Positions 1 through 6,557 of a stretch of DNA of 64,000 bases are shown in pieces. Within the stretch, counting starts at the first letter, position 1; each line of letters starts with the position of its first letter. The stretch comes from Pseudohongiella nitratireducens. GTDB lineage: Bacteria; Pseudomonadota; Gammaproteobacteria; Pseudomonadales; Pseudohongiellaceae. The translations under genes were made by a program, and so were the position numbers. The stretch spans positions 1 to 64,000 of the forward strand of contig NZ_LWHM01000001.1 of NCBI RefSeq assembly GCF_001642735.1, in the 5' to 3' direction. Below the pieces are notes generated by a model. That model saw nothing but the letters and a program-made list of their open reading frames with translations. It was not told where the DNA came from and made no database searches.

Positions 1-353
1 AACGAGGACTCCGATGCCACATATACGCCCTGGTCCATCAATGCCGGTACGATCTGCGTCGGTGCCAGGTCTACAAAGGCCGTCAGGTTGCACAAATTTA
101 CGATCTGCTCTTTTTCCTGGTCACTGAGCTTGTTCGTCGGCGCTGGCCTCATGGCTTCGGGGCGCTGATCGGCCTGAACCTGACCGTCCTGATACCAGCG
201 TCGGTAGGTACGAAGGCCGATCTGCGCCTCAGCACAGGCCTTGTGCAGTCGCGCGCCGCTGCCTACTGCTTCGTGTATCAATTCTATAATAATCAGGCGC
301 TCTGGCAGCGCGGTCAGTCGTCCGCGTCGTTGTTCTCCCAGAGCGCATCCAGC
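1..353 (-). CDS. IS3-family transposase OrfB, N-terminal part (partial, edge of window)
   Basis: This is the start of the catalytic transposase subunit, read in the -1 frame relative to OrfA. The open frame from 353 down to 1 reads through segments such as LPERLIIIELIHEA, GARLHKACAEA and LRTYRRWYQDGQ, typical of the N-terminal HTH-like region that precedes the DDE integrase core in this family. No good start codon of its own is seen, which fits synthesis as an OrfAB fusion by frameshifting. The DDE core lies off the left edge, so activity cannot be judged. Confidence 0.8.
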
Positions 354-817
354 TTTTTTCGCAGCACCAGCAGCGCCGCGGTTTCTGCCAGTGCTTTCTC
401 TTTACGGCGCAGCTCCTTCTCAAGCTTTTTGATCTGCTGCTTATCCGCCTTTGACTGCTGCTTGAGCGTTTTATCCTGCTGCTCGGCACTTTGGAACCCG
501 GCCAGCGAAGCTTCTTTCCAGGCCTTTACCTGCTCGACGAACAGACCTTTCTGGCGACAATACTCATTAAGCTGAGCCTCGCTCATCGTGGCTGTTTCTA
601 TCACCGTGGCCAGCTTTGCTTCAGCTGACCACTGGTCTGTGTTATTTGGTTTGGGCCCCGGCACGGCGCGTCCTCTTAATCTGGCTTGCTTGCGCCAATT
701 ATAAAGGGTTGCTTCGCTGATGCCTTCAACTTTTGCCAGATCCGATACCGTCATGTTGTACGGCGGCAGTAACCGGCTCAAAACTGCTTCCTTACGCTCC
801 TGTGAAAATCGCGCCAC
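314..817 (-). CDS. IS3-family transposase OrfA
   Basis: A 167-residue protein with a GTG start at 817. Residues 1-60 form a transposase-type helix-turn-helix (SDLAKVEGISEATLYNWR is the recognition part), and residues about 110-155 are a Lys/Glu/Gln-rich coiled coil with heptad character, as usual for the OrfA dimerisation zipper. It binds the element ends and regulates transposition. It overlaps OrfB, and a slippery heptamer lies near its end. The protein looks intact. Its 5' end is directed at the truncated LysR gene. Confidence 0.85.
   Translation of the reverse strand: MARFSQERKEAVLSRLLPPYNMTVSDLAKVEGISEATLYNWRKQARLRGRAVPGPKPNNTDQWSAEAKLATVIETATMSEAQLNEYCRQKGLFVEQVKAWKEASLAGFQSAEQQDKTLKQQSKADKQQIKKLEKELRRKEKALAETAALLVLRKKLDALWENNDADD
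353..359 (-). promoter_or_regulatory. Programmed -1 frameshift slippery heptamer A_AAA_AAG
   Basis: On the minus strand OrfA reads CGA AAA AAG, so the heptamer is in the exact zero-frame phase needed for tandem slippage. After a -1 shift the frame continues without a stop into OrfB. This is the classical IS3-family signal. I did not identify a downstream pseudoknot or stimulatory hairpin. Confidence 0.85.
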
Positions 818-860
818 TCATATTCTCAATCCGCCCATCTGGTAAAAGTAGATGGTGTCA

Positions 861-1658
861 ACTATCCTGCCAGAGCGGGACCGTAATACGCGGAAAATTG
901 CACTGACAGAAGCCGGCGAGGTTTTCTATCAGGGCTGCAAGGACACTCTGGCGACGCTGGAAAAGACGCAGCAGCAACTCAATGACCTGAAGCGTACTTC
1001 CACCGGCGATCTGCGTATTGCCAGCCCGGCCGGGATTTCCTGCTGTGGCATGCTCGGTGCTCCTTTGAAAGGACTGATCGAATCCAACCCGACGTTAAAT
1101 GTACAGCTGATCGTCAAGGATGAGCCGGTCGACCTGGTCAGTGAAAGAATTGACCTGGCATTGGTGGTTAGAATCGGGTCCCTGCCTGACTCCAGACTCA
1201 TCGCCAGAAAACTGGTGAACTGGCAGCAGTCCCTGGTGGCAACACCTGAATTTCTTGAGCGAAACGGACTGGATCCGGCAGTGGCCATCAATGACCCGGC
1301 AGCGCTGGCGCCATTGAACTATCTTTGTCATGAAATCCTGCTCAGCGAAAACTATCTGATCAGTCGTGGAGACACACAAGCGAAACTGTCATTGTCACCA
1401 AGACTAGTGGTCAATAACATGCAAACGCTGATTGGTCTGGTCAAGGAAAGTGTGGGCATGGCACGTCTGCCCCAACCTGAAATTCATCAGGAGTTGCGCA
1501 CAGGCAGATTGATTGCCCTGTTGCCGGATTGGGATATGCCGCCGGCAACCGTGTACGCAGTCACCAGTCAACGTGAGTCGCAACCGCTGAAAGTACGCGC
1601 GGCGCTGGAAGCATTGAGCCAGGCTTTCCAGGACCATGTTGCACGAACGGCCAGCTAG
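861..1658 (+). pseudogene. LysR-type transcriptional regulator, 5'-truncated by IS insertion
   Basis: The readable protein begins at the wing that follows the recognition helix in LysR regulators (ERDRNTRKIALTEAGEVFY) and continues through the linker helix and the whole effector-binding domain. About 55-60 N-terminal residues, including the winged helix-turn-helix, are absent. An ATG at 852 lies in or next to the IS end and would give a 268-residue product without DNA-binding capacity. The upstream half should lie beyond the other IS end if this is a simple insertion. Its regulatory target is unknown. It converges on hslO. Confidence 0.85.
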
Positions 1659-2594: not shown

Positions 2595-4919
2595 TTACGC
2601 TGCCCCTCGTCGGATTGCATCACTGCCGCTGTCATTCCTTATATAGCTGTTTTTGCATCCTGTTCTGGATTGCGAGTCCAGCGACGACGCCAGGCTGCGC
2701 AAAAGATTCGCCACTACCTTTTGTACAAAGGCATTGCCATCAGCCGCCACATCACTACTGCTGCTCAGGATCGACTCAGGGTGAAACTGCACTGCTGTCC
2801 ATGGCAGCGCCCGGTGCCGTATGCTCATGGGAATACCTTCCGCCAGAGTACGCGAGGTCACTTCAAGTACTTCAGGTACCTGGCTGGCAATCAGAGAATG
2901 ATATCGCCCTGCCAGAAACACGCTCTCCACGTCCGTAAACAAACTGTCGCCCTGATGACAGACTTGCGAGCTGGCGCCATGCACAGGGCGTGGCAGCACT
3001 GTTAACGAACCTCCACAATAGCTCACCATGGCCTGCATGCCCAGACAAACACCGAACACCGGCAGCCCATACAGCTCACACAATGCCAGCGTCTCATGAC
3101 AGGAAAAATCTTCCGGTGTACCCGGGCCTGGGGACATCACCACCAGATCAAATTCATGCTGCTGTAATGCTCGTCTTGCCGAGTCGGGACGACGCGTTTC
3201 CACCGTCATTCCCAGGGCACGAAAAGCGGCTGACAGGGAATGAATAAAGGAGTCTTCGTGATCAACCACGAGAACCCGCCCAGCAAACTGATTGTTAGTT
3301 GTCGTGAGTTTATTGCGCTGCTGACTTTCCAGACCTGCTCCCGAGGCATTGACGCCATGGCTGTCAGGCGTCAATGCTGACAGCAAGGCCAAGGCTTTCA
3401 GCCGGGTCTCTGCTTCTTCTTCCTCAGGCGAAGAATGCGCCAGCAGCGTGGCACCGGCTCTGACATGAGCCAGCCCGTCCTTAACCTGAACTGTGCGAAT
3501 CGTCAGTCCGGTATCAACATCGCCATTGGCCGAGAGAAAGCCAAAACAGCCGCCATACCATCCTCTGGCACTGTGCTCATGTTGTTCAATAAATGACATC
3601 GCCGCACGTTTCGGTGCGCCCGTTACCGTGACAGCCCAGCAGTGTGATAACAACGCATCCAGGCCATCCAGGTCGTCTCGCAGCTGACCTTCGACATGAT
3701 CCACGGTATGAATCAGCCGTGAATAGGTTTCAATCTGACGCCTGCCCAGCAATTTCACACTGCCCGCTTCGCAGACCCGGTTCTTGTCATTGCGATCCAC
3801 ATCGGTACACATGGTCAGCTCGACTTCATCCTTGTGCGAGTTCAACAGTCGCTTGATCTGTTCAGCATCCTCGATGGGTGTGTTACCGCGCTCGATTGTC
3901 CCTGAAATCGGACAACTTTCAACCCGCTTGCCTGACACACGCACAAACATTTCCGGGGAAGCTGAAATCAGAAACTCGCCAGCACCGAAGTTAATCAGTG
4001 CCGCATAAGGGGAAGGGTTCTCTGTGAGAAGTTTCTGGAAGACAGTGGAAGGTTTGACACGCAATGATTGCGTAAATGTTCGAGATGGCACAACCTCAAA
4101 CAGATTGCCTTTGGCAATCTCTGACAAAGCAGATTTTACGACATCCTGATAAGCCATTGCGGTGTGATCATTGATAATCCCATCTTCACCAGACAAAGCA
4201 CCCTCTTGCACCGCTGGTTTCTGCCTGGCTGTTTGCCGACGCAATCCGCCTGTAGTCTCTTGCCGCCCTGTTTTATCCGTAACAATAAAATCATACTGAT
4301 AAATTTTGCCCTGCCCGGTGACAGGGTCGACCTGCAAAATTTCATCAGGCAAATAAAAGGTGAGATCCTGTTGTTTGTCACTTCGTTGCAGGTGGCGTTG
4401 AATGGCATCAAACTGAAAGGCCATGTCATAGGCGAAAGCGCCATAAAGCCCCAGGCAGCTTTCTTCAGGATGCTGAAACAACGCTAGCAAATGTCTTAAC
4501 AGTGGCACTGCGCCGGCCGTTTTGCTTCGCTCCTCTTCAATCACATCCTGTTTGAGCTGTGGTTTGATGGCACAACGAAGGGAATCACTCCGAACCTCTA
4601 GCTGATCTACATGCGCCGCCAATACCATCTGGATAGCGGGCAGCAACACGACACCGCGTTTGTTCAGTGCTGCTACGGTCAGCGTTTCCGCATTGGCAGT
4701 CACCATCAGCGGCGGGTTGATAAAGGCGAGATCGCGTTTTCGGTATCGCCCGGGGAATTCCATGGCGCAGGTAAAACGCATGCCACGCTCATGATCGAGC
4801 TGTTTTGTTAGTTGTGAAATTTTTTGCTGCCCATCGCAGACCTGTATCCGGCGCTCGACCTGCAAACACGGGTGGGATCGATAGCGAAAACAGTCTGATT
4901 GATGGTTTGAAACATTCAT
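2595..4919 (-). CDS. trpE(G): Fused anthranilate synthase, TrpE and glutamine amidotransferase domains
   Basis: Converts chorismate and glutamine to anthranilate, the first step of tryptophan synthesis. About 774 residues. The N-terminal ~520 residues are a TrpE-type chorismate-utilising domain (DRNDKNRVC at ~375-383, VTGAPKRAAM at ~431). After a short low-complexity linker comes a class I glutamine amidotransferase (GVCLGMQ with nucleophile Cys ~625, QFHPES ~711-716). Single-chain fusions of this type are best known from Rhizobium and Azospirillum; PhzE has similar architecture, but no phenazine genes are nearby. The ATG at 4919 has GGAG 8 bases upstream and is preferred to GTG 4946. A leader peptide with Trp codons lies upstream. 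Confidence 0.92.
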   Translation of the reverse strand: MNVSNHQSDCFRYRSHPCLQVERRIQVCDGQQKISQLTKQLDHERGMRFTCAMEFPGRYRKRDLAFINPPLMVTANAETLTVAALNKRGVVLLPAIQMVLAAHVDQLEVRSDSLRCAIKPQLKQDVIEEERSKTAGAVPLLRHLLALFQHPEESCLGLYGAFAYDMAFQFDAIQRHLQRSDKQQDLTFYLPDEILQVDPVTGQGKIYQYDFIVTDKTGRQETTGGLRRQTARQKPAVQEGALSGEDGIINDHTAMAYQDVVKSALSEIAKGNLFEVVPSRTFTQSLRVKPSTVFQKLLTENPSPYAALINFGAGEFLISASPEMFVRVSGKRVESCPISGTIERGNTPIEDAEQIKRLLNSHKDEVELTMCTDVDRNDKNRVCEAGSVKLLGRRQIETYSRLIHTVDHVEGQLRDDLDGLDALLSHCWAVTVTGAPKRAAMSFIEQHEHSARGWYGGCFGFLSANGDVDTGLTIRTVQVKDGLAHVRAGATLLAHSSPEEEEAETRLKALALLSALTPDSHGVNASGAGLESQQRNKLTTTNNQFAGRVLVVDHEDSFIHSLSAAFRALGMTVETRRPDSARRALQQHEFDLVVMSPGPGTPEDFSCHETLALCELYGLPVFGVCLGMQAMVSYCGGSLTVLPRPVHGASSQVCHQGDSLFTDVESVFLAGRYHSLIASQVPEVLEVTSRTLAEGIPMSIRHRALPWTAVQFHPESILSSSSDVAADGNAFVQKVVANLLRSLASSLDSQSRTGCKNSYIRNDSGSDAIRRGAA

Positions 4920-5014: not shown

Positions 5015-5109
5015 CAGGCCGCCTACCGGATGCGGGCAGCCTGAAAAATGTGTGTTCAGGTTTTTAAAAGATCTGTCGCTGAGTCAGCAAGCAGACATCA
5101 ACCTGATGT
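5015..5109 (-). promoter_or_regulatory. Attenuator-like alternative hairpins upstream of trpE(G)
   Basis: On the minus strand between the leader peptide and trpE(G) there are three stems. A 6-bp stem pairs 5104-5109 with 5095-5100 around a 3-base loop. A 5-bp stem pairs 5056-5060 with 5040-5044. A GC-rich 9-bp stem with one G-T pair joins 5035-5043 to 5015-5023. The second and third share bases 5040-5043 and so exclude each other, as antiterminator and terminator would. The run after the third stem is only weakly U-rich, so this may not be a standard intrinsic terminator. Confidence 0.55.
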
Positions 5110-5132
5110 TGTTTACATGTTTTCTGACGGCC

Positions 5133-5177
5133 CTAGTTGAAGTACCACCAGAAAAACACGGTATTTAGTCTGTTCAT
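5133..5177 (-). CDS. trpL: trp leader peptide, 14 residues with tandem Trp codons
   Basis: A short frame in front of trpE(G) encodes MNRLNTVFFWWYFN. Two adjacent TGG codons occupy 5145-5150 and are flanked by Phe and Tyr codons, with a TAG stop at 5133-5135. Position, length and tandem Trp codons are those of a transcription-attenuation leader, where ribosome stalling at low Trp-tRNA prevents terminator formation. No Shine-Dalgarno sequence is seen, and the putative promoter would start transcripts within a few bases of the ATG, so the peptide could be translated from a nearly leaderless RNA. The sequence is clear; the regulatory function is inferred. Confidence 0.75.
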   Translation of the reverse strand: MNRLNTVFFWWYFN

Positions 5178-5185
5178 GGGGCGCG

Positions 5186-5214
5186 ATTTTGCGCCTGCAA
5201 TGTCAAGCTGTCAA
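5186..5214 (-). promoter_or_regulatory. Predicted sigma-70 promoter for the trp leader and trpE(G)
   Basis: Minus-strand TTGACA (5214-5209), a 17-base spacer and CAAAAT (5191-5186). The -35 is a perfect match and the spacing is optimal. The transcription start would fall near 5179, just before the leader ATG. Confidence 0.6.
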
Positions 5215-5306: not shown

Positions 5307-6557
5307 ATGCCATCGTTCAAGTCCATGCTAATCCTGCTTGTCACAGTCATGCCTGTCCTGGCCCCAGGCACTGACGCGCAAGCTCAGTCCGCCGCTGGCA
5401 CAACGATTACTCCCTTCGAGATTGCAATTCCAGAACAAGCTATCACGGACTTGCACCGGCGCCTGGAGATGGCACGCCTGCCCGCACAGATTCCTGATAC
5501 CGGCTGGGAATACGGGACGAATTCGCAATACCTTAAAGAGCTTGTTGAATATTGGCGTAACGAGTTCGATTGGCGGCAACAGGAAGAAGAGCTCAATGCT
5601 TTTGATCAATACATGACCATCATTGATGGTGTGGCGATTCATTTTATCCATCAGCGCTCCTCTAATCCGGATGCCACTCCATTGATGATCACCCATGGTT
5701 GGCCCGGCTCCATCGCCGAGTTTCGTCATATCATCGGCCCTTTAACGGAGCCGCAAAATTATGGTGGTAACGCTGAAGACGCCTTTCACGTCATCGCACC
5801 CAGCCTGCCCGGATTTGGTTTCTCCGGTGCCCCACAGGAACGTGGCTACAACCCCGAGCGCATGGCGCAAACACTGGCCGCATTGATGCAGCGACTGGGC
5901 TATGAACGCTACGGGTTGCAAGGCGGAGACTGGGGAGCCATTATCAATCGCATACATGCCGACCAGTTTGCTGAGCACGTGATCGGTCTGCACTCCAATT
6001 TTGTTCTGGCCAGCCCACCGGAAGATCCGGCCGTCCGTGACGCGGCTACTGAAGCCGAAATGACAGCCCGCACCGCCCGTCAGGCCTACATGGCCAACGA
6101 AGTCGGTTATCAGCAGATCCAGGGGACGAAACCACAAACCCTGGGCGTCGGGCTGAACGACTCTCCCGCCGGACTGGCTGCCTGGATCGTTGAGAAATTT
6201 CACGGTTGGAGTGATATTGACCAGCAAAGCGTGCATGGCCTGGACGCCAAATTCAGCAAGGACGACATGCTCACCGACATCAGCCTGTACTGGTTTACTG
6301 CCAGCATCACCTCCTCGGCGCGCATTTACTACGAAAGCCGGCACGTCGCCATGCAGGAGCCGCTCGGTTATGTTGATGTTCCCACCGCCGGTGCCATTTT
6401 TCCGAAGGAGATCTATCTCACTCCCCGGCGCTGGGCAGAGGAGCAATACAATATCGTTCGCTGGACACCGATGCCCCGAGGCGGCCACTTCGCGGCCATG
6501 GAAGAACCCGAATTGTTACTGGAAGATATTCGGGCTTTCTATCGCAGCCTGCGCTAG
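5307..6557 (+). CDS. Epoxide hydrolase family alpha/beta hydrolase with signal peptide
   Basis: About 416 residues. Residues 1-27 form a signal peptide ending near AQAQS, so the enzyme is probably periplasmic. Residues ~35-145 are the epoxide hydrolase N-terminal (EHN) domain, followed by an alpha/beta hydrolase fold. The oxyanion motif HGWPGS, the nucleophile Asp in GGDWGA and the late His in RGGHFAAME are all visible. Enzymes of this family open epoxides through a covalent aspartyl ester, like microsomal and juvenile-hormone epoxide hydrolases. The substrate cannot be told. It is divergent from the trp promoter and converges on the SDR gene 19 bases downstream. Confidence 0.88.
   Translation: MPSFKSMLILLVTVMPVLAPGTDAQAQSAAGTTITPFEIAIPEQAITDLHRRLEMARLPAQIPDTGWEYGTNSQYLKELVEYWRNEFDWRQQEEELNAFDQYMTIIDGVAIHFIHQRSSNPDATPLMITHGWPGSIAEFRHIIGPLTEPQNYGGNAEDAFHVIAPSLPGFGFSGAPQERGYNPERMAQTLAALMQRLGYERYGLQGGDWGAIINRIHADQFAEHVIGLHSNFVLASPPEDPAVRDAATEAEMTARTARQAYMANEVGYQQIQGTKPQTLGVGLNDSPAGLAAWIVEKFHGWSDIDQQSVHGLDAKFSKDDMLTDISLYWFTASITSSARIYYESRHVAMQEPLGYVDVPTAGAIFPKEIYLTPRRWAEEQYNIVRWTPMPRGGHFAAMEEPELLLEDIRAFYRSLR

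Follow-up and report, generated by a model that had tools for sequence, protein, structure and literature searches.

The trpL-trpE(G) locus

The window, by which we mean the whole 64,000-nucleotide stretch of Pseudohongiella nitratireducens DNA that was analysed, carries on its minus strand trpE(G), which encodes a fused anthranilate synthase and is preceded by a promoter and a short leader frame, trpL, with an epoxide hydrolase gene (5307-6557) as the divergent neighbour. The features, in order of transcription, are as follows.

5209-5214, minus strand: -35 hexamer TTGACA, from sequence and promoter scan
5186-5191, minus strand: -10 hexamer CAAAAT, 17-nt spacer to the -35, from sequence and scan
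about 5179-5177, minus strand: predicted transcript start, placed from the -10 position
5133-5177, minus strand: trpL leader frame MNRLNTVFFWWYFN, 14 residues, ATG at 5177-5175 and TAG at 5135-5133
5145-5156, minus strand: RNA segment 1, UUUUUCUGGUGG, holding both Trp codons
5120-5133, minus strand: RNA segment 2, GGGCCGUCAGAAAA, able to pair with segment 1 or 3
5049-5119, minus strand: spacer between segments 2 and 3, with a hairpin of its own
5034-5048, minus strand: RNA segment 3, UUUUUCAGGCUGCCC, able to pair with segment 2 or 4
5015-5023, minus strand: RNA segment 4, GGCGGCCUG, 3' arm of a terminator-like hairpin
2595-4919, minus strand: trpE(G), fused anthranilate synthase components I and II, 774 aa, from profile matches

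The initial annotation had described a 14-residue ATG-to-TAG frame with tandem TGG codons, a TTGACA-17-CAAAAT promoter and a tryptophan gene downstream, and all of these were recovered when the minus strand was read again: the tandem TGG lies at 5150-5145 inside the trpL frame, the promoter was the single site in a 600-bp scan (10 of 12 matches, 0.5 expected), and the gene is the fused trpE(G). When the 387-nt intergenic region was shuffled 5000 times with dinucleotides preserved, 39 shuffles (0.8%) held a tandem-Trp ATG frame of 8-45 codons on the same strand, and none held one with a promoter 6-9 nt upstream. The gap between the -10 and the ATG is 8 nt, and no Shine-Dalgarno site fits within it, as had been claimed. 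This stretch (5178-5185) is GC-rich, of the CGCGCCC type, in the window as in the relatives; a discriminator of such make-up is linked to ppGpp control in other bacteria.

The trpE(G) gene starts at an ATG at 4919 with GGAGA upstream, and its product scores above cut-off against TIGR01815 (829.6 bits, cut-off 739.15) and NF010081 (903.7 bits, cut-off 645), with Chorismate_bind and GATase as its Pfam domains. A canonical trpE, with trpG and trpD downstream, lies on another contig of the same genome and is present in nearly all relatives, so trpE(G) would be a second anthranilate synthase, under predicted Trp attenuation. The end of rpe, 18 nt before this canonical trpE, leaves no room for a leader there. 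In a tree of 50 TrpE(G) proteins the window's protein has the longest branch (2.19), and it shows nine departures from near-invariant columns whilst keeping the catalytic motifs GVCLG, FHPE and GAPK; on its sequence, it is a fast-evolving second anthranilate synthase. At the far end of the window, an HTH_Tnp_1 transposase ORF (314-817, minus strand) adjoins a LysR-type ORF (852-1658, plus strand) in which the substrate domain alone was detected, and a transposase insertion has possibly cut the LysR gene here (314-1658).

Conservation of the leader among relatives

We searched 96 genomes with TrpE(G) and found the fused gene in about 40, and in about 40 of the 59 members of the gammaproteobacterial family. 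In 36 distinct genomes, counting the window's own, trpE(G) is immediately preceded by a Trp leader, and this recurrence settles the reality of the leader, confirming its presence before trpE(G). Typical leader peptides of relatives are MNIQTQYFWWFTDKGRQENNDQSI, MNTQTYFWWLDQSGRQEKHF and MQTTNFKKQWWWLATSGRLD; in relatives segment 2 would be translated as GRQ or GCQ. The tandem TGG is kept in 35 of the 36 leaders, and the initial annotation's proposal thus withstood the test that had been set to refute it, a lack of conserved Trp codons in close relatives. The remaining leader (L018, genome G007) reads Trp-Arg (TGG CGG) and so keeps one Trp codon, the rest of the attenuator being intact. In a further genome with trpE(G) (L028, G017) the corresponding region has degenerated: a lone Trp codon is followed by Arg, and no promoter was recognised. 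One trpE(G) locus (L048) showed no leader in the sequence first read, where the contig stops just upstream, and in its genome (G041) a leader was matched by the covariance model on another contig; the G048 contig likewise ends near trpE(G).

The promoter and its spacing are kept along with the Trp codons. In all relatives the -35 is TTGACA or one mismatch from it, and the ATG follows the -10 by 7, 8 or 9 nt in 10, 15 and 10 rows, to which L038 is added when measured from its second ATG, so the closeness of the ATG to the predicted transcript start, pointed out for the window beforehand, holds at 7-9 nt in 36 of 36. SD-like tetramers occur 4-16 nt before the ATG in seven leader rows; these are not expected to be transcribed, because they lie inside or before the -10, which ends 7-9 nt before the ATG. 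As no ribosome site fits, these leaders seem to be translated leaderlessly throughout the family.

A covariance model of the leader, for which E-values are rough, gave one strong match per genome, at trpE(G) where checked, and in the window's own genome the model (R1) found no second site beyond trpE(G). We rejected a regulon beyond trpE(G) after reading two weaker matches in the order, L127 and L128, which were ordinary GC-rich terminators with no Trp leader at the match. One second, weaker match to the leader model (rough E-value 1.1e-6) lies away from trpE(G) at G002:C20:50153-50301. No WW leader was found at the TrpE(G) genes of five other gammaproteobacteria (L120-L124) or of the Legionella type (L008), so the leader is not tied to every TrpE(G). 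In the TrpE(G) tree, L029 and L038 fall nearest to a group of alphaproteobacterial and other gammaproteobacterial proteins, in a part where the deep forks are weak.

Alternative RNA helices

A MAFFT alignment of the 36 leaders (A1), used as produced with no hand curation, resolves four segments: segment 1 comprises the Trp codons and the preceding U-run, segment 2 is GGGCCGCCAG or near it, segment 3 is CAGGCUGCCC or UGGCCGCCC, and segment 4 is GGCGGCC(UG). These form three conserved helices, 1:2 (the Trp codons with segment 2), the 2:3 antiterminator and the 3:4 terminator hairpin. Across A1, 96.8%, 80.6% and 95.1% of cells are paired in 1:2, 2:3 and 3:4, compared with maxima of 65%, 62% and 55% in slid controls, the segments having been placed by their motifs, which favours the pairing counts. 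As related rows also inflate these counts, we give weight to the slid controls and to compensation within 3:4, where 19 both-side changes were found, a number reached in none of 500 shuffles. The middle position of helix 2:3 is unpaired in 36 of 36 rows, probably because segment 2 also has to match a G in the Trp codons, and segment 3 a purine in segment 4.

We modelled a stalled ribosome by masking segment 1, as for a ribosome on the first Trp codon, and cutting the RNA before segment 4; under these conditions all 36 leaders had 2:3 as their minimum-energy pairing, compared with 100 of 720 shuffles. Folded free and at full length, 35 of 39 rows, a set that includes three duplicates, form 3:4. 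The window leader folds much more stably than shuffled versions of it (z -4.2), and folding of the plus strand of the same region is ordinary (z 0.5). When the full-length window leader was folded thermodynamically with a stalled ribosome, 3:4 remained the favoured pairing, so antitermination would need the order of co-transcriptional folding, as in known attenuators. The locus thus combines a short tandem-Trp leader frame directly before a trp gene with conserved, mutually exclusive antiterminator and terminator helices.

Proposed mechanism and alternative readings

The element is very probably a ribosome-mediated transcription attenuator through which Trp controls trpE(G); the initial annotation had proposed such attenuation, and the conserved Trp codons and antiterminator/terminator pair support it. 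We assign this mechanism to the window's element because of the plan it shares with rhizobial leaders (see below) and its conservation, and we infer stalling, termination and leaderless initiation for this organism. RNA polymerase would start on the leader AUG or some two bases away at most, as the promoter spacing suggests, and a ribosome would load onto the leaderless AUG of trpL. When charged tRNA-Trp is scarce, the ribosome would stall on UGGUGG and cover segment 1, leaving segment 2 free to pair with the emerging segment 3, and with this antiterminator formed transcription would run on into trpE(G). In cells well supplied with Trp, translation would proceed to the leader stop codon; segment 2, covered by the ribosome or re-paired with the Trp codons (1:2), would be unavailable, allowing 3:4 to form and transcription to end before trpE(G).

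How the 3:4 hairpin would stop transcription bears on this account. The U-tract after segment 4 is weak in the window (CUUCAUGUCU) and throughout the window's genus (2-5 U of 10), a standard terminator scan of the region did not call the 3:4 hairpin, and U-tracts do occur in other genera of the same family (e.g. L029, L038). The leader might therefore sense Trp with a 3:4 hairpin that in this genus is not an intrinsic terminator, release then needing Rho, NusA or NusG, or the switch acting on RNA stability; we regard this as unlikely, as few parts are better conserved than the 3:4 stem, which also shows compensatory changes, and weak U-tracts can still terminate with NusA or NusG. A further reading is rather improbable: that in this family the leader RNA, once released, and its peptide rich in aromatic residues have a role in trans, like rnTrpL and peTrpL in rhizobia, or that termination is factor-dependent and dispenses with a U-tract, leaderless ribosome loading being obligatory for timing.

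The window's copy of the leader stands apart from the others: a nonsense codon falls just before segment 2, and the spacer is long. Read in frame past the TAG, it continues as GRQK, as in the peptides of relatives, and AAG stands at the position of the TAG in L013, L015, L018, L019 and L020; the TAG is most simply explained by one nonsense mutation. Segment 3 is offset from segment 2 by 92 nt, compared with 34-49 nt in most relatives and 73-88 nt in six. A leader shortened by its C-terminal half and an enlarged spacer, before a gene on the longest TrpE(G) branch with its nine departures and redundant with the canonical trpE, could mean that the attenuator is decaying in this genome. We consider decay quite improbable, however, since no damage is seen in the promoter, the Trp codons or any of the four segments, TrpE(G) retains its catalytic motifs, and a ribosome terminating at the TAG would, by standard footprint size, still cover segment 2, just before which rhizobial leaders likewise stop. 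That the frame arose by chance has practically no probability: the 64 kb hold 14 short ATG frames with WW, so WW by itself proves little, but this frame stands in the same place in 36 genomes together with its promoter and structure, which rules chance out.

Comparison with known trp leaders

Under the attenuator reading, the closest counterpart is the trpL-trpE(G) of rhizobia. The Sinorhizobium meliloti trpL is a 14-aa leader of trpE(G) that is reported to start with its AUG, was shown experimentally to be leaderless (PMC7298713, PMC10117765), and has Ribo-seq and mass-spectrometry peptide support (PMC10117765, PMC7298713). We fetched alphaproteobacterial trpE(G) genes by TIGR01815 for comparison, and a WW or WWW leader was present in 29 of the 30 rhizobial and other alphaproteobacterial loci read, their assignment to the alphaproteobacteria being by match of the leaders to published ones and by family name. 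The two groups share the fused gene family, the tandem Trp codons, the layout of segments 2, 3 and 4, and an AUG close after the -10, at 6-7 nt in rhizobia and other alphaproteobacteria where promoters are well resolved and 7-9 nt here; the window's leader peptide is also 14 aa long, as in S. meliloti. They differ in that most relatives here would be translated through segment 2, before which rhizobial leaders stop, in that rhizobial leaders have U-tracts whereas many here are weak, and in that the peptides are dissimilar outside the Trp run. The window's element is thus probably of the same kind as the leaderless trpL-trpE(G) of S. meliloti, with the weak U-tract as a caveat on its membership.

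Tandem Trp codons in segment 1 and the alternation of 1:2, 2:3 and 3:4 are shared with the Escherichia coli trp leader. The E. coli leader, in contrast, carries a ribosome site within a 5' UTR, ends in a strong U-tract, stands before trpEDCBA and is additionally controlled by TrpR. A search of 4227 Rfam models, at the gathering threshold or E up to 5, returned nothing relevant for the window's leader, a chance snoRNA match aside, and Rfam presumably contains the E. coli trp leader. A literature search, with older attenuator surveys outside its reach, returned no report for this gammaproteobacterial family.

What is new here is a gammaproteobacterial family that probably has the leaderless trpL-trpE(G) switch known from rhizobia, in a form whose leader is, by prediction, usually translated through segment 2 and whose hairpin often has no good U-tract. 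The general picture of attenuation is unchanged; a switch described mainly in rhizobia, and with no Rfam match here, gains a gammaproteobacterial family, trpE(G) emerges as a second anthranilate synthase, putatively under Trp control, in addition to the canonical trpE, and 36 natural variants allow leaderless start, Trp stalling and helix choice to be compared.
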